From: an uncultured Cellvibrionales bacterium
GTDB lineage: Bacteria > Pseudomonadota > Gammaproteobacteria > Pseudomonadales > Dasaniaceae
Reading direction: 5' to 3'
Assembly (NCBI GenBank): GCA_913019905.1
Contig: CAJVZD010000012.1
Span: 1-64,000, forward strand
DNA length: 64,000 nt
In this document: positions 34,805-44,642 of the stretch, piece by piece
Position numbering within the stretch: position 1 is the first letter of the stretch
Layout: every line of letters starts with the position of its first letter
Notes under the pieces: model-generated
The model's database searches: none
What the model saw: only the letters and a program-made list of their open reading frames with translations
What the model was told of the DNA's origin: nothing
Position numbers and translations under genes: made by a program

Positions 34805-35737
34805 TCAGTCCGGCTTAACATCCCGAAGTCTGTCCTGCACAGTTTTAGCTAGAACATCCGGTTGAAATTTGGAAAGAAAGCCATCACATCCCACTTTTTT
34901 CACCATCGCCTCATTAAAACTACCGCTTAAAGATGTGTGTAAAACAATGTGCAAATCTTTCAACAACGCGTCATTTCTAATTTCAGTCGTCATACGGTAG
35001 CCATCCATTTCTGGCATTTCCGCATCGGTAATAACCATCAGCAAATTTTTCTCAAAATCGTACCCGGCATCTCTCCATGCCTGCAACCGCCGTAGGCCTT
35101 TTAGTCCGTCTGTCTCTACAACAACATTGAGCCCCAACTGTTCAAGGGTTGTCTTAGCCTGGCCGATTGCCACTGGCGAATCATCGACGAGTAATACTGT
35201 TTTCTCTCGCGCAAAGGAAATTAGCTCATCGTCGAGAATATCGTCAGAAATATTGGTATCAAAACTGATGACCTGTGCTAAAACTCGCTCCACATCAATA
35301 ATTTCAACGATTTTTTCTTCAATTCGCGTGATCGCCGTAAGGAAATGACTACGACCAGTTGCCGCCGGGGGCGGCATTACTTCCTCCCAATTCAAATTGA
35401 CAATACCGTCCACACTCCCAATCAAAAAAGCTTGAACGGACCGATTGTATTCAGTGACGATGATATTAGCGTGCTCATCTTGTACGATCGGGCTGCGACC
35501 GATAGCCAAACTCAAATCAATGACCGGGATGGTTTGGCCTCGTACCGTCGTTACGCCCACAATAACCGGGTCGCTTTTCGGCATGATATTCAACCGGGGA
35601 AGTTGTTGAACTTCTTGAACCTTAAATACATTAATGGCAAATAACTGCGACCCCTTCAATCGAAAAGTGAGTAACTCCAATCGATTTTGCCCTACCAATT
35701 TAGTTCTTTGGTCTACGCTATCAAGTATATTCGCCAT
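34805..35737 (-). CDS. cheV: CheV chemotaxis coupling protein
   Basis: A CheW-receiver fusion that links chemoreceptors to CheA and adapts the signal through phosphorylation. The 310-residue protein has a CheW domain in residues about 15-165 (LLTFRLKGSQLFAINVFKVQEV, VRGQTIPVIDLSLAIG) and a receiver domain from about 180 (KTVLLVDDSPVAIGQAK with the acidic pair, and the phosphorylated aspartate in VITDAEMPEMDGYR, followed by VLHTSLSG). No cheA or receptor gene is nearby, so it works with components elsewhere. Confidence 0.95.
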   Translation of the reverse strand: MANILDSVDQRTKLVGQNRLELLTFRLKGSQLFAINVFKVQEVQQLPRLNIMPKSDPVIVGVTTVRGQTIPVIDLSLAIGRSPIVQDEHANIIVTEYNRSVQAFLIGSVDGIVNLNWEEVMPPPAATGRSHFLTAITRIEEKIVEIIDVERVLAQVISFDTNISDDILDDELISFAREKTVLLVDDSPVAIGQAKTTLEQLGLNVVVETDGLKGLRRLQAWRDAGYDFEKNLLMVITDAEMPEMDGYRMTTEIRNDALLKDLHIVLHTSLSGSFNEAMVKKVGCDGFLSKFQPDVLAKTVQDRLRDVKPD

Positions 35738-36004: not shown

Positions 36005-36871
36005 ATGACAAAATTACAATCGAAAACTACTCTTCCTGTCAATTGTCCCCTGGTGGATATTGGGGCCAATTTAACGAACAAGCGGTTCGATTCCGATTTT
36101 GAAGAGGTATTGCATCGAGCAATAGGTGCAGGGGTCCAGCACATCATCATTACCGGCACCAACATTGAGGAAAGCCAGAAAGCAGCTCTAATTGCGTCAA
36201 ACAATCCTTTACAGTTGTCGAGCACGGCCGGCGTCCACCCACATGATGCAAAACTAATGACCAAAGAGACTTTGGAGTGTATGAAAAGCCTTGCCAAAGT
36301 CAGCTCAGTTCGAGCGATTGGCGAATGCGGACTGGATTTTAACCGTAATTTTTCTACAAAAGAGCAACAGATTAAGGCCTTTGAACAACAAATTGAACTC
36401 GCCATCGAATTGCGATTACCATTATTTTTACACGAACGGGATGCGTTCGAAGAACAGTGGCAATTGTTGTCATCATATAAAAACCAGCTACCCAATGTTG
36501 TCATTCACTGCTTTACAGGAAATAAACAGCAAGCTTTTAAATATTTGGACTTAGGTTTCTATTTGGGTATAACTGCCTGGATATGCGACGAACGCAGAGG
36601 TTTGCACTTGCAAGAATTTGTAGGAGATATCCCTCTTGAGCGCCTAATGATTGAGTCAGACTCACCGTATTTGACTCCGCGTGTTAAACCTAAACCAACA
36701 CTCACAGTAAAAGGGCGAAACGAACCCCACACCCTACCCTATATTCTGGAAGTCATAGCGAATAGCAGCTCCAAATCCACGGACACAATAGCTGCACAAA
36801 CGACAAGAAACGCGATTGATTTTTTTAAGCTACCCCAAAACATCAGCGAGCCTTTACTGCAAAAATGCTAG
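36005..36871 (+). CDS. tatD: TatD metal-dependent DNase
   Basis: A 288-residue TIM-barrel metallohydrolase. The N-terminal DIGANLTNKRFDSDF, STAGVHPHDAK, AIGECGLDFNRNFST, VIHCFTGN and GITAWICDERRG blocks match E. coli TatD itself, ahead of its paralogues. Metal and catalytic residues are carried by HPHD, GECGLDF, the HERD histidine and ESDSPYL. E. coli TatD is a 3'-5' exonuclease implicated in DNA repair under oxidative stress. A second TatD-family gene (YcfH type) is at 43389. Overlaps the convergent glutaredoxin-like gene by 18 bases. Confidence 0.92.
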   Translation: MTKLQSKTTLPVNCPLVDIGANLTNKRFDSDFEEVLHRAIGAGVQHIIITGTNIEESQKAALIASNNPLQLSSTAGVHPHDAKLMTKETLECMKSLAKVSSVRAIGECGLDFNRNFSTKEQQIKAFEQQIELAIELRLPLFLHERDAFEEQWQLLSSYKNQLPNVVIHCFTGNKQQAFKYLDLGFYLGITAWICDERRGLHLQEFVGDIPLERLMIESDSPYLTPRVKPKPTLTVKGRNEPHTLPYILEVIANSSSKSTDTIAAQTTRNAIDFFKLPQNISEPLLQKC

Positions 36872-37159: not shown

Positions 37160-38467
37160 TCAGTCCGCTGCTACCAATGGCGTCAATGCAGACAAGGATT
37201 GTTGATCAGTCAGGTTTGTCTGTGCTAAATGATTTGCCAGCAATTCCGTTAGTAGCTGATTCGGCTGGTCAAATTTTTCAGCTTTTTCAAATAATCTATT
37301 CAACTGCTCGATGATTTTCACAACATGATCAAAACGACCGCTGTGTGTATCGAACAAGTCGCCATTCCCCGGGGACGCATTGCCGACGAGGCCCTCGGTA
37401 TAACCGCCAGCATAAGTTTCTACGATTTGGGCTTTTGTCGTTAAGGCCAGATCCAGTGAAAATTGTGAGAATTCAGAAAAGTCTAATTCGAAATCTAAGG
37501 CCATGGCATAGGCCGTTTGAAAATCTCCCTCGAAAAATTCATTGGACAATTCTGTTACTTCCGAGAGCAAATCATTTAAGGCATTTAACTCGCCTTCATC
37601 TAACTCGCCTTGTATCGTTAAGCCAAAATTAGAAGACGCAGAATAACGTTGTTGAATAGCATACACTGATGACTGTTGATCTGAGTAGAAACCTTCCTGT
37701 AAGTCGCGTGAGTGACTCGCACTAAAACTAAGAGTAATAATATCGCCATCATTCGTCTTTACTTGTAAATCGACGCTTTCGTTTCGACGGTAACTCTCAG
37801 CATATCCCGCGGCCACCGCCTGTAAGTCACTAAACCCCGTCGTTCTGTGTTCCGAGAGAGGCTTAGCGGATGGCGCTGTTGTGGTATCGCGCTTATCGGA
37901 ATGTATCCCTTCATGATCATCGTTTTCACTTGAGGCGACGTTTCCCTGCAGCTCGTTTTGGAGTGCGGCAATACCTTCTCGAACCAAACGCCCAGTCTCG
38001 ACAATTCCATCAGCTACGGTACCGGGTAAACTCTCTAATCCGCCCAAACTTTCGATTGCCTCAGAATAGCCCTGTTCAAAACCTTCCAGTGCCAATTCAA
38101 GCGATTTCGCTGAATCCTCCTCCGTCGCTCCGTCCTTAACCTTTCTTTCCAGATAATGTTCAATAAAGCCAAGAATAGTATCAGCACTTTTTTGTGACAG
38201 GCTATTGTCTGCTACGATTTCCTCGCTCTGTACAGGAGGGCTAACGAAAGGGGATTGTCCATAACTTTTCGAAAGATAGAGAGCCGTTTGTGAAAAACTA
38301 ATTGATACTGAGGTCTGTGATCCCGATAGGGTAGAAACGGATATTCCCGACACTGACTTTTCACTTTGCAGCAACGAGTCGACTGGCGTGTGTCCGCCCT
38401 CATGATGCCTGTGTGCTGCAGAACGCTGCTCCGACACAGGAAAATTGAACAGATTGGATAAGTTCAT
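37160..38467 (-). CDS. DUF5610 domain protein
   Basis: About 435 residues, soluble. The frame opens at a GTG (38476), but ATG 38467 has AGGTGG five bases upstream and is preferred (MNLSNLFNFPVSEQRS). The N-terminal 90 residues are low in complexity and rich in Ser/Gln/His. Residues about 95-170 carry the DUF5610 motif (DTILGFIEHYLERKVKDG, LEGFEQGYSEAIESLGGL, VADGIVETGRLVREGI). The remainder is acidic, with a beta-rich middle (LQVKTNDGDIITLSFSASHS). No signal peptide or membrane helix. The role of this family is unknown; homologues occur in marine gammaproteobacteria. It lies between amt upstream and the glutaredoxin-like gene downstream, all on one strand. Confidence 0.75.
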   Translation of the reverse strand: MNLSNLFNFPVSEQRSAAHRHHEGGHTPVDSLLQSEKSVSGISVSTLSGSQTSVSISFSQTALYLSKSYGQSPFVSPPVQSEEIVADNSLSQKSADTILGFIEHYLERKVKDGATEEDSAKSLELALEGFEQGYSEAIESLGGLESLPGTVADGIVETGRLVREGIAALQNELQGNVASSENDDHEGIHSDKRDTTTAPSAKPLSEHRTTGFSDLQAVAAGYAESYRRNESVDLQVKTNDGDIITLSFSASHSRDLQEGFYSDQQSSVYAIQQRYSASSNFGLTIQGELDEGELNALNDLLSEVTELSNEFFEGDFQTAYAMALDFELDFSEFSQFSLDLALTTKAQIVETYAGGYTEGLVGNASPGNGDLFDTHSGRFDHVVKIIEQLNRLFEKAEKFDQPNQLLTELLANHLAQTNLTDQQSLSALTPLVAAD

Positions 38468-38662
38468 ATAAACCACCTAGAATAACGAAAACTTCAATAG
38501 GTAACTTATCGGCCAAACTTGAATTTACTTGCCTGTTTTTATAGTTTATTTATGACTTACGGGAACGCGTATTATTCATATATTATATTGGTTAACTTAG
38601 CCCTCTTTCTTTCCAGAAACTGACGACCCGAAAACCGACAATCTTAACGCCAACTGCCCAGA

Positions 38663-40966: not shown

Positions 40967-42607
40967 ATGGCCTTATCAAAATTGGATCTGCTTAAAATTT
41001 ACAAACATAAATCGGTATTAATCATAGATGACTATCCGGATATGCGTGGGTCAATACGTCGCATGGTTGAAAACTTCGGGGTCAAAAATGTAGAAACCGT
41101 ATCCAATGGCGAGCATGCCATCGCAAAATGCGAAGAAAACTCCTATGACATTATTCTCGCAGATTACAACCTCGGCGACGGTAAAAACGGTCAGCAAATC
41201 TTAGAAGAGCTTCGCTACAAAAAACTTTTAGAACAAAAATGTATTTATATGATGATTACGGCGGAAACCACGAAAGACATGGTTTTCGGAGCACTCGAAT
41301 ACCAACCCGACGATTATCTCACGAAACCCTTCACACTTTCAGTACTGGAAAAACGCCTCGATCGATTGACTATTGAAAAAGAAGCACTTTATGAAATAAA
41401 CGATGCCATTGATAAAGACAGCTTGGATAGAGCCATTGCCCTGTGCCAACAACGCATCAACATGCATGACAAATACGAATTTCGCTGCTTTCGGATCATG
41501 GGCGGCTGTTTATACAAGAGACGTAAATTCGACAAAGCCAAACAAGTTTACGAAGGCATAGTCCGCGATAGAGACTTAGAGTGGGCTAACATAGGCTTGG
41601 GTAAATCACTTATTGCACTCGGCGACCTTGATGGCGCAGAAAAAGTTTTTGGTAATTTAATCGATAATGGCTGTCTCTGTCTGGAAATTTACGACTGCAT
41701 GGCTGAGATTCATAATCAAAGAGGACAATCAGAATCAGCCCAAAAGATTCTGGAGCAAGCAATAGAACTTTCTCCCAATGCTATATTACGACAGGAAAAA
41801 CTCGCCGACCTGAGTGAAGACAACCACAACTGGTCACAGGCAGAGTTAGCGCGTAAAAAAGTGATTCGATTAGGAAATAACTCTGTCTACGAATCTCCAG
41901 AGCACCATTTTAAATTAGCCAGAACGATAACATCGGAAATGGAATACAATGAAAACCCGAAGAAACGGCTTAAAGATGTCGATGAAGTTCTGCGAAAAGT
42001 AAAACGAAAATTCAATGATGATACAGTGAATCTACAATCGGACATACTCGAAGCGAACGTATGCGCGAAAGCAGGAAACCTGGAAAAATCTCAAAGTATT
42101 ATTGCAAACGTTGAATCAAGGCTTGATACTGCAATCAGCAAACCCGCGCAGTTAATGCTCGACATGGCCCAGACATACAGTGCTGCTGGAGACCGTGACA
42201 AGGCAAAAAAATTGTTGAAAGATCTCTCTGAGATTCATGCAGATAACGATGAATTATCCGATGCGATCGACCGAATTTCCGACGAACCGTTGAGTAAAAA
42301 AGGCAAACAGCAAGCCGTCGAATTAAATACTGCCGGGAAAAAGCTGTTCACCGGCAAGGAATACGATAAAGCGGTTGAGCTTTTTAGCCAGGGATTAAAA
42401 CACTATCCGAATAACATGGGCTTGAATCTAAACTTAATGTTGGCCCTCGTCAGGGAAATGACAGCCAACGGGACTACGCCAAGCCAGTTAGATCGCTGCG
42501 GTATAGCCAAGGAAAAACTACAGCATTTAAGTAGTGACAACCCTCTTTATGATCGATACAAAGTTCTTTGCGATCATTATGAAAAACTCCAAAAATCGGC
42601 GAAGTAA
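40967..42607 (+). CDS. Response regulator: receiver domain fused to TPR repeats
   Basis: A 546-residue soluble protein. Residues 14-130 are a CheY-like receiver: acidic pair D21-D22 in VLIIDDYPDMRG, phospho-acceptor D66 in IILADYNLGDG, MMITAET and the lysine in YLTKPFT. The rest is helical with tetratricopeptide-like repeats (e.g. RAIALCQQRINMHDKYEFRC, GGCLYKRRKFDKAKQVYEGI, GLGKSLIALGDLDGAEKVF, KEYDKAVELFSQGLKHYPNN). There is no DNA-binding, cyclase or other catalytic output domain, so the output is presumably protein binding. The following gene, 12 bases on, is a histidine kinase that may phosphorylate it. Confidence 0.88.
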   Translation: MALSKLDLLKIYKHKSVLIIDDYPDMRGSIRRMVENFGVKNVETVSNGEHAIAKCEENSYDIILADYNLGDGKNGQQILEELRYKKLLEQKCIYMMITAETTKDMVFGALEYQPDDYLTKPFTLSVLEKRLDRLTIEKEALYEINDAIDKDSLDRAIALCQQRINMHDKYEFRCFRIMGGCLYKRRKFDKAKQVYEGIVRDRDLEWANIGLGKSLIALGDLDGAEKVFGNLIDNGCLCLEIYDCMAEIHNQRGQSESAQKILEQAIELSPNAILRQEKLADLSEDNHNWSQAELARKKVIRLGNNSVYESPEHHFKLARTITSEMEYNENPKKRLKDVDEVLRKVKRKFNDDTVNLQSDILEANVCAKAGNLEKSQSIIANVESRLDTAISKPAQLMLDMAQTYSAAGDRDKAKKLLKDLSEIHADNDELSDAIDRISDEPLSKKGKQQAVELNTAGKKLFTGKEYDKAVELFSQGLKHYPNNMGLNLNLMLALVREMTANGTTPSQLDRCGIAKEKLQHLSSDNPLYDRYKVLCDHYEKLQKSAK

Positions 42608-42619
42608 ACGGAGGGAACC

Positions 42620-43321
42620 ATGTCAAAACCAGACTCCAGGGATCCCGTTGATATCGATTTTCCGATGCTGCTAGCATCGTCTGTTCACGATATAAAAAAC
42701 TCTCTTAGTATGCTCCTTGCCTCCTTGGATGAGGTAATAGACATCAGCACAGAAGATCGCCCTGAACATAGAAAGAGCTATAGTATTTTACGCGGTGAAG
42801 CATCACGGATAAATAACTCGTTAATTTATCTATTGGGTTTGTACCGATTACAAAACGATCAACTCACTCTAAATTTGACAGAAATTTTTGTCGCCGACTT
42901 TTTAGAGGAGCAAATTGCGAGTCAAAAGTTACTGTTTGACGTCAATCAAATACACATAGAAATCATTTGCGATGAAGATCTCACCGGTTTTTTTGACGAA
43001 AACCTGATCGCTGGTGTTATCAACAATATTTTGGTCAATTGTGCCAAATATACGAAAGACTCGATAATCGTTAAGGCCGAGCAAAGAGACGAATATTTGC
43101 AAATTTCCATTTTAGACAATGGAAATGGGTATCCTGCACAGATCATAGAAAAATTAAGCAATACCAGCCGCAGTATTGATTTTCATAGCGGCAGCACTAA
43201 TCTCGGTTTGTTTTTTTCTCAAGAAATAGCTGCATTACACCGATGCAAGGACCGGCAAGGTTCAATTGAGCTGTTAAATCGCAAAGAGGGCGGCGGCTCG
43301 TTTCTTATCAATATCCCCTAG
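42620..43321 (+). CDS. Soluble histidine kinase without a sensor domain
   Basis: A 233-residue protein made only of a dimerisation/phospho-acceptor region and an ATPase domain. H23 lies in SSVHDIKNSLSMLL (H-box). The N-box is in NNILVNCAKYT (about residues 135-145), the D-box is DNGNGYP (D166) and the second glycine box GSTNLGLFFSQEIA. No membrane helix, PAS or GAF domain precedes it, so the signal must come through a partner, plausibly the receiver-TPR protein encoded immediately upstream. A strong GGAGGG ribosome binding site precedes the ATG. Confidence 0.88.
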   Translation: MSKPDSRDPVDIDFPMLLASSVHDIKNSLSMLLASLDEVIDISTEDRPEHRKSYSILRGEASRINNSLIYLLGLYRLQNDQLTLNLTEIFVADFLEEQIASQKLLFDVNQIHIEIICDEDLTGFFDENLIAGVINNILVNCAKYTKDSIIVKAEQRDEYLQISILDNGNGYPAQIIEKLSNTSRSIDFHSGSTNLGLFFSQEIAALHRCKDRQGSIELLNRKEGGGSFLINIP

Positions 43322-43324
43322 TAC

Positions 43325-43404
43325 GAATTTACAAAAACGAGTCTGAATTTATATAGACTGGCTTGAATTTACTAAAACAAGCGTGGACTCACAAAAATAA
43401 GCGC
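43325..43404. repeat. Degenerate 20-bp tandem repeat, four units
   Basis: Exact 20-base spacing: GAATTTACAAAAACGAGTCT (43325), GAATTTATATAGACTGGCTT (43345), GAATTTACTAAAACAAGCGT (43365), GGACTCACAAAAATAAGCGC (43385). It fills the gap between the kinase gene and the convergent ycfH gene, and the last unit runs into the 3' end of ycfH. Units 1, 3 and 4 are clearly alike; unit 2 is the most diverged. Confidence 0.75.
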
Positions 43405-44156
43405 TCAAAATTTTCAGACGTTATTTCCGCTAATCGTTCTACGGAAACGTTGTGTAGCCCGGCAAGACATTCGGCAACCTCAACAACGTACTGAGGTTCA
43501 TTTTTTTTCTTTCTGTGGGGTACAGGTGCTAAATAAGGCGAGTCAGTCTCTATTAGCAATCTATCTAGGGGGACTTTTTGTGCTACATCGCGCAGATCAG
43601 CCGCGTTATTGAACGTTACAATACCTGAGAATGAAATATAATAATTTAAATCCAGTGCCTGTTTCGCCATTGACCAACCTTCAGTAAAACAGTGTAAAAC
43701 ACCACCCTCGGAACGCTCCCCACACTCACTAATAATCTTTATAGTATCGGCCTGTGCGTTTCGCGTATGAACAATGGTGGGCTTTTTTACTTTTGCGGCA
43801 AGTTCCAAGTGGAGACGAAAACTCTCTTGTTGAAGATCGGCACTGTCTTCACTGTAAAAATAATCAAGCCCTGTCTCTCCTACCGCGACCACTTTTTCAG
43901 CATTAGCCAGGCTTTCAAGTTGACTCCACTCCACTTGCTGACGCTCTACATCCATCGGATGAATGCCTACCGACGCGTAGACACACTGATAAGCTTGCGC
44001 GATATCCACAACGATTTGCGCATTAGCCATGTCGATACCAACGCATAACATCCTGTCGACACCTCTTTCGTTAGCCGCCTTGATGGCAAGCCCGAGATCT
44101 CCTTGATAAGGTGTGAGATCTATCCGATCAAGGTGACAATGTGAATCAACAAACAT
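43389..44156 (-). CDS. ycfH: TatD-family metal-dependent hydrolase, YcfH type
   Basis: A 255-residue TIM-barrel hydrolase: MFVDSHCHLDRID with the H-x-H metal site, SVGIHPMDVE, AVGETGLDYFYSEDS, PTIVHTRNAQADT, VLHCFTEG and LIETDSPYLAPVPHRKKKNEPQYV. Physiological substrate is not established; homologues are putative DNases. It is the last gene of the holB/tmk cluster, 126 bases after pilZ, which is the usual place for ycfH. The last codons lie in a 20-bp tandem repeat. Confidence 0.92.
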   Translation of the reverse strand: MFVDSHCHLDRIDLTPYQGDLGLAIKAANERGVDRMLCVGIDMANAQIVVDIAQAYQCVYASVGIHPMDVERQQVEWSQLESLANAEKVVAVGETGLDYFYSEDSADLQQESFRLHLELAAKVKKPTIVHTRNAQADTIKIISECGERSEGGVLHCFTEGWSMAKQALDLNYYISFSGIVTFNNAADLRDVAQKVPLDRLLIETDSPYLAPVPHRKKKNEPQYVVEVAECLAGLHNVSVERLAEITSENFERLFL

Positions 44157-44282: not shown

Positions 44283-44642
44283 TTACATGGTATGAGTCGG
44301 TCGGTCGGAGTCTAATGAACCAGCTAAGTAGTTTTCAATCTTATTATTAGCCGTTTCATCCTGACCATTAAACTGTACACCAATCCCAGCGGCTCGATTT
44401 CCCTGTGCACCCTTAGGCGTGACCCAAACAACTTTTCCGGCCACGGGTATTTTCTCCGGCTCGTCCATTAAATTAAGAAGCATAAACACTTCGTCGTTTA
44501 TGTTGTAGGGTTTATTAGTGGGTATAAACAAGCCACCATTAATTAAATACGGCATATACGCGGCGTACAGAACAGCTTTATCTTTGATAGTCAGCGAAAG
44601 AATTCCATTTCGCGGACCTTGGGGGGCGGCGGCACTATTCAT
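44283..44642 (-). CDS. pilZ: PilZ, type IV pilus assembly protein
   Basis: A 119-residue PilZ-fold protein following holB. GILSLTIKDKAVLYAAYMPYLINGGLFIPT and the KVVWVTPKGAQGNRAAGIGVQF stretch match the founding PilZ, which sits at this position in Pseudomonas and is needed for type IV pili. It lacks the N-terminal RxxxR motif of cyclic-di-GMP-binding PilZ domains, as expected for this class. Contrast with the PilZ-domain gene at 5566, which has it. Confidence 0.92.
   Translation of the reverse strand: MNSAAAPQGPRNGILSLTIKDKAVLYAAYMPYLINGGLFIPTNKPYNINDEVFMLLNLMDEPEKIPVAGKVVWVTPKGAQGNRAAGIGVQFNGQDETANNKIENYLAGSLDSDRPTHTM

Follow-up and report, generated by a model that had tools for sequence, protein, structure and literature searches.

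VieB of Vibrio cholerae is a receiver-TPR protein, a monomer of 64 kDa that binds the VieS dimer with a KD of 0.47 µM and blocks both autophosphorylation and phosphotransfer; with the D62E form, inhibition of VieS is weaker (PMC4352251). Its partners are the membrane hybrid kinase VieS and VieA (REC-EAL-HTH). In Pseudomonas syringae, the VieB-like PSPTO1911 was placed among the orphan regulators in a 2007 census, the main text of which does not name PSPTO1912 (PMC2222644). Both genes returned in a 2025 transposon screen with selection for swimming, in which PSPTO_1911, annotated as “Response regulator/TPR domain protein” (PC1 -0.56), and PSPTO_1912, annotated as “Sensor histidine kinase” (PC1 -0.54), were among 18 motility-contributing genes, alongside cheY, cheA and cheW (PMC11813219, Table 3); each occurs once in the main text, only in that table. 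As far as the parts of these papers drawn on here go, the two are known as entries of a screen table and, for PSPTO_1911, as an orphan of the census (PMC11813219, PMC2222644). Open-licence full text, a corpus that leaves most subscription papers uncovered, held no description of such a pair beyond these two papers.

The window analyzed here, a stretch of 64,000 nucleotides, carries on its forward strand a gene for a receiver-TPR response regulator of VieB-type architecture (T; 546 aa, 40967–42607) and, after a gap of 12 bases (42608–42619) that holds a GGAGGG ribosome binding site at 42610–42615, a gene for a soluble histidine kinase without a sensor (K; 233 aa, 42620–43321). Both genes start with ATG, and the stop codon of T occupies 42605–42607. 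The two-gene unit proposed by an earlier reading of the DNA (the sequence-only reading) was found at these positions. Scans for promoters and terminators gave no signal exceeding that of shuffled sequence. The neighbors of the pair, identified from the open reading frames and Pfam, are DUF416, ammonium transporter and TatD genes. Two TatD-type nuclease genes flank the region on either side (36005–36871 and 43389–44156), and 37160–38476 encodes a protein of 438 aa with DUF5610, a domain of unknown function.

T has the make-up of a complete receiver joined to a protein-binding superhelix. Pfam assigned Response_reg to residues 17–131 (2e-20) and found TPR models, and the AlphaFold model of T alone had a mean pLDDT of 96 and a pTM of 0.90. 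The receiver (approximately residues 14–135; 41006–41371, forward strand) has a CheY-like fold, with the best match at Z 20.2 and rmsd 1.6 over 129 residues, and the CheY-type matches of Z approximately 20 span residues 10–140. The remainder (approximately residues 142–545; 41390–42601, forward strand) is a superhelix of helix pairs, for which the TPR domain of O-GlcNAc transferase (OGT) was among the best fold matches; both Pfam and the model support the TPR-like part of about 400 residues read from the letters. Conservation was counted in 111 rows (110 loci and the window, some rows sharing a genome). Position 21 is Asp in 105 of them and position 22 in 106, the phospho-acceptor D66 is kept in 109, position 98 is Thr in 105 and Ser in 6, and K120 is present in all 111, so the receiver residues D21, D22, D66 and lysine are intact in T, as had been claimed, and conserved across the family. 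Behind the receiver, neither Pfam nor the model indicated an HTH or an enzymatic output, and Pfam found no membrane, DNA-binding or cyclase domain in T or K, in agreement with the sequence-only reading.

Within the TPR region, W206, D243, R275, S306 and N489 are conserved in T encoded beside K (91 rows) and likewise in 25 rows of T without an adjacent K. This pattern fits a putative partner surface independent of K, which we treat as a lead only. In one member of the T family (L180:2226–4844), the receiver-TPR part is joined with a domain of the Ser/Thr protein kinases (Pkinase in Pfam, 4e-47).

T resembles VieB in its N-terminal receiver with the conserved phospho-accepting Asp, its TPR region, its lack of a DNA-binding domain and its size (546 aa against 64 kDa). 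The homology itself was traced to a VieB-like protein of Vibrio campbellii, and VieB of V. cholerae is likened to T by description. The V. campbellii locus (L241:6031–8634) is decayed; its pieces carry SBP_bac_3, EAL and receiver domains by Pfam, in an order that appears to be the one expected of VieS, VieA and VieB. Its first VieB-like piece, comprising the receiver and the first TPRs, scored 197 bits against a T profile of 68 rows (positions 4–211). The second piece scored 14.5 bits against a profile of 23 rows and gave no match with the 68-row profile; since this is barely a score or none, VieB-like homology of the C-terminal half of T is not established. Judged from sequence, T is VieB-like in its architecture and in the homology of approximately its first 210 residues. 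The partners differ: VieB acts with VieS and VieA, whereas the conserved partner of T is a separate soluble kinase of 233 aa, and neither a VieS-like hybrid kinase nor VieA was found beside the pair among the open reading frames and Pfam domains of the window. VieSAB, in the part of its description drawn on here, has no counterpart of K (PMC4352251). The suggestion that the locus is an undescribed system thus holds for the pair, which is conserved and under-described, but not for the response regulator, the type of which is already known. The new element is the fixed soluble kinase partner.

K retains the catalytic residues of a kinase. HATPase_c (1e-9, residues 126–232) was the sole Pfam model above the cut-off, and HisKA gave no match at E values up to 0.1, with one chance match below the cut-off. 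In a model of T and K read through as one chain (pTM 0.84), the two DHp helices occupy model residues 565–594 and 599–629. The K part matched DivL (Z 20.5, 219 residues, rmsd 5.8) and HK853 (Z 19.2, 212 residues, rmsd 6.7), which identifies K as a complete DHp and CA core, and model residues 635–784 matched the catalytic domain of ThkA (Z 19.8, 142 residues, rmsd 1.9). The DHp helix pair is assigned to approximately residues 14–78 (42659–42853, forward strand), with H23 inside an HDxKN box, and the catalytic ATPase domain to approximately residues 87–233 (42878–43318, forward strand). The earlier description of K as an H-box plus ATPase of 233 residues is accordingly completed to a full core without a sensor. 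K shares the DHp helix pair and ATPase domain with HK853, DivL and the cytosolic fragment of ZraS (Z 19–20); unlike these canonical kinases, it has no sensor, HAMP, PAS or Pfam HisKA match.

The phospho-acceptor His and the N, G1 and G2 boxes (H23, N140, D166xGxG and G196) are all present. Of 94 rows, 93 keep H23, 92 keep D24, and 93 each keep N27 and N140; D166, G168 and G170 are present in all 94, and G196 is conserved. The only row that has lost H23 (L098) carries Tyr at position 23. Three loci that share its flanking genes (L099, L100 and L126) retain T, and their genomes, the completeness of which is not established, gave no K match at 1e-25. To judge from these sequences, K seems to have decayed and been lost within one clade.

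E/DxxT/N is the phosphatase motif of histidine kinases. Because the box of K reads D24-x-x-N27, K possibly also removes the phosphoryl group. It could even be chiefly a phosphatase for T, with other kinases charging T; H23-D24-x-x-N27 would suit this role, as would the missing sensor and the genomes in which T has no K or in which one K goes with two or more copies of T. We regard this as very improbable, as the ATP-binding and phospho-acceptor residues are almost always kept, and an enzyme acting purely as a phosphatase could do without them. In the reading that we prefer, K is a kinase that would autophosphorylate at H23 and pass the phosphoryl group to D66 of T, and may dephosphorylate T as well. 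Receiver–DHp pairs made up 3 of the top 10 and 6 of the top 100 pairs in a coevolution analysis of T and K, against a background of 4 percent, a mixed signal.

The linkage of the two genes is conserved. In a first search of 57 genomes, including that of the window, 29 matched, and a short K orthologue was present in 26, at 27 loci. T lies directly upstream of K at all 27 by reading of the frames, and 23 of these were also aligned; at one locus (L012), T is split over two frames. Another (L004) was omitted from the K alignment as apparently identical to L003. The other three matched genomes (L027–L029) were rejected as carriers of K, having matched through longer generic kinases only. In 274 genomes of the class, K was counted above 180 bits (the lowest counted match had 187 bits and the next 100) and was found in 31, and T was found in 37 at 1e-40. 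Generic kinases were not taken as K: matches to the K profile at 1e-20 came from 89 class genomes, and in 58 of these only other, longer kinase frames had matched. All 31 genomes with K also carry T, adjacent in 29; in the other two (G063 and G153), K stands at a contig end and T on a different contig. Six genomes have T and no K at 1e-25 (G158, G162, G171, G194, G274 and G286). T was present in 24 genomes of a phylum sample of 299, the share of which outside the class was not listed, and all 24 belong to the same class.

Among named genomes, at least 586 T loci were found and the best 80 examined. K adjoins T in 70 of these; for the remaining 10, seven genomes pair their K with a further T copy, and in three no K match was obtained. 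At three loci (L113, L123 and L130), a T copy without adjacent K directly follows a gyrB gene, for which Pfam gave GyrB at L113. A large Pseudomonas-like genus of the same taxonomic order has T in 130 of 199 genomes, with K beside T at all 30 loci examined. The order is inverted, K then T, in two genomes (L196 in G602 and L210 in G528). Two kinds of apparent fusion were set aside: in G277, a shortened T is followed by K in another frame, and long T frames at L194, L195 and L197 were taken as long open frames in GC-rich DNA. The flanks of the pair vary, comprising ammonium transporter and DUF416 genes, hybrid kinase and symporter genes, flagellar genes and others. A further type consists, by Pfam, of methyltransferase and flavoprotein genes, which we take to be cmoA- and nadB-like. 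The pair moves between contexts yet stays linked, and since the two genes are neighbors in many genomes, whichever of them comes first, the pairing goes beyond chance. A kinase normally separate from the receiver-TPR gene, which would have spoken against the sequence-only reading, was thus not what the co-occurrence search returned; linkage was conserved across both the class and the named genomes.

In 46 of the best 80 named loci, mostly Marinobacter, the gene directly upstream of T encodes a large kinase. At one such locus (L111), Pfam found PAS_7, HisKA, HATPase and Response_reg in this kinase, with a NahK/ErcS-like C-terminal part and no symporter domain; a VC_2705-type symporter gene lies further upstream there, in an order shared by most such loci. 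We presume the kinase to be SLC5-type, resembling the symporter-linked hybrid kinases CrbS and MxtR. The Marinobacter order is symporter, a protein of 168 aa, hybrid kinase, T and K, often followed by a receiver/coiled-coil protein. This CrbS/MxtR-type look-alike adjoins T in Marinobacter, whereas it is unlinked in the window; the best match to the Marinobacter kinase in the window's own genome has 31 percent identity over residues 6–478 and lies on a different contig. One paper on CrbS/R contains no mention of TPR (PMC5436829).

These loci bear on two other explanations. T could be a VieB-like anti-kinase, the unphosphorylated form of which blocks a membrane hybrid kinase until K phosphorylates T and lifts the block, so that K would act as the release and would not itself originate a signal. 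The inhibition of VieS by VieB, weaker in the D62E form (PMC4352251), would be its precedent, and the 197-bit match of the V. campbellii receiver and first TPRs and the large kinase upstream of T in those 46 loci are consistent with it. We nevertheless consider it unlikely, as the window has no hybrid kinase beside the pair, the best match in its own genome is on another contig, and VieSAB as described lacks K. Alternatively, the pair could be mainly an accessory of nutrient sensing, with secondary effects on swimming, as the conserved symporter-to-K order might suggest. This seems to us quite unlikely, since among the loci viewed that arrangement occurs only in Marinobacter and near relatives, the pair adjoins other genes elsewhere, and FliM co-occurs with it. 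In the reading that we prefer, T and K are a module of their own, which in other lineages would be joined to other sensors, in Marinobacter to the large hybrid kinase.

Many Marinobacter-type loci carry, after K, a gene for a receiver protein with an extended C-terminal tail; in Hahella, Oleiphilaceae and others, this gene stands before T. At L111:8446–9183 and in L103, L105, L135, L153, L239 and L240, the tail is coiled-coil-like and has a hydrophobic stretch. Its presence beside the pair in several families makes it a possible third component; a search of the window's genome at 1e-20, run without a positive control, gave no match.

The suggested tie to motility draws on the P. syringae data and on gene neighborhoods. 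PSPTO_1911 and PSPTO_1912 of strain DC3000 resemble T and K in their consecutive numbering and in their make-up by annotation, and they are probably the orthologues, judged by annotation, adjacency and the flagellar-side synteny of other genomes. Their nearly equal PC1 values can reflect polar insertions within one operon. In five of the seven Pseudomonas-like genomes viewed, the pair lies within approximately 12 kb of YcgR/PilZ-, CheR-, FlgD- and FlgE-type genes, identified by Pfam in G678 and by tblastn in G773, G740, G628 and G763; G707 and G720 have no such gene within 20 kb. A CheW-receiver (CheV-like) gene lies at 34805–35737 of the window, 5.2 kb upstream of T, and its homologue lies approximately 2 kb upstream of T in a Dasania locus (L095) and in the same five Pseudomonas-like genomes. 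No CheV-like gene was found in the examined flanks of L091–L094, L096 and L097, and no flagellar structural genes were among the open reading frames of the window viewed at 25–49 kb. A Pseudomaricurvus locus (L102) has an extra T flanked by two FliS genes, with a FleQ gene nearby.

FliM accompanies T. It was present in 35 of 37 genomes with T and in 107 of 237 others (Fisher p 2e-9, kinship ignored), and the comparison with genomes holding generic kinases without T (38 of 56) gave p 0.002, again with kinship ignored. The genome of the window contains FliM. The transposon data, the flagellar neighbors, the CheV-like gene and the co-occurrence with FliM lend indirect support to the motility guess of the sequence-only reading; against it stand two genomes (G089 and G153) with both T and K and no FliM match. 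The PilZ gene at 44283–44642, considered as a link to c-di-GMP, was rejected as such. By Pfam it sits among fabF/pabC/mltG/tmk/holB/tatD-type genes, presumably a common gene order, and for this reason it gives no clue.

That T and K make up a dedicated two-component module in the cytosol, the output of which is phosphorylation-controlled protein binding and probably affects flagellar motility, we judge to be about as likely as not. The phosphorylation state of the receiver would alter what the TPR superhelix binds, such that the output would be a protein partner held or released and not transcription. Because K has no sensor, its activity must depend on protein contact, most likely with T itself or with a partner recruited by T; the signal may enter through T, through the dimer contacts of K or by way of a third protein. 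In Pseudomonas-type bacteria, the module would most likely promote flagellar swimming or chemotaxis. What the analysis establishes is the architecture, the intact catalytic residues, the modeled folds and the conserved linkage; phosphotransfer, the direction of control, the partner and, for the organism of the window, motility as the process are inferred. The proposal of a cytosolic, phosphorylation-controlled scaffold fares well as regards the conserved soluble two-gene unit and its protein-binding output domain, and less well as regards novelty, the receiver-TPR type not being new. A more specific version is tentative, its chances rather below even: the pair may be a widespread, uncatalogued cytosolic module of the Gammaproteobacteria, missed so far because its kinase escapes HisKA, in which the phosphorylation-switched TPR scaffold grips a motor, chemotaxis or kinase protein and thereby controls flagellar motility, without a sensor domain and without an output through DNA binding or a second messenger.

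The two-gene module of T and K is real and conserved, and it is under-described. Next to a receiver-TPR regulator that had been classed as an orphan there appears to be a conserved kinase, which the standard domain model misses, and the lack of a sensor in this kinase raises the question of where the signal enters. If swimming is controlled by protein binding alone, the module would add to the inputs that govern the flagella of a large Pseudomonas-like genus, and the odd inhibitor role of VieB could be one outcome of a wider module.
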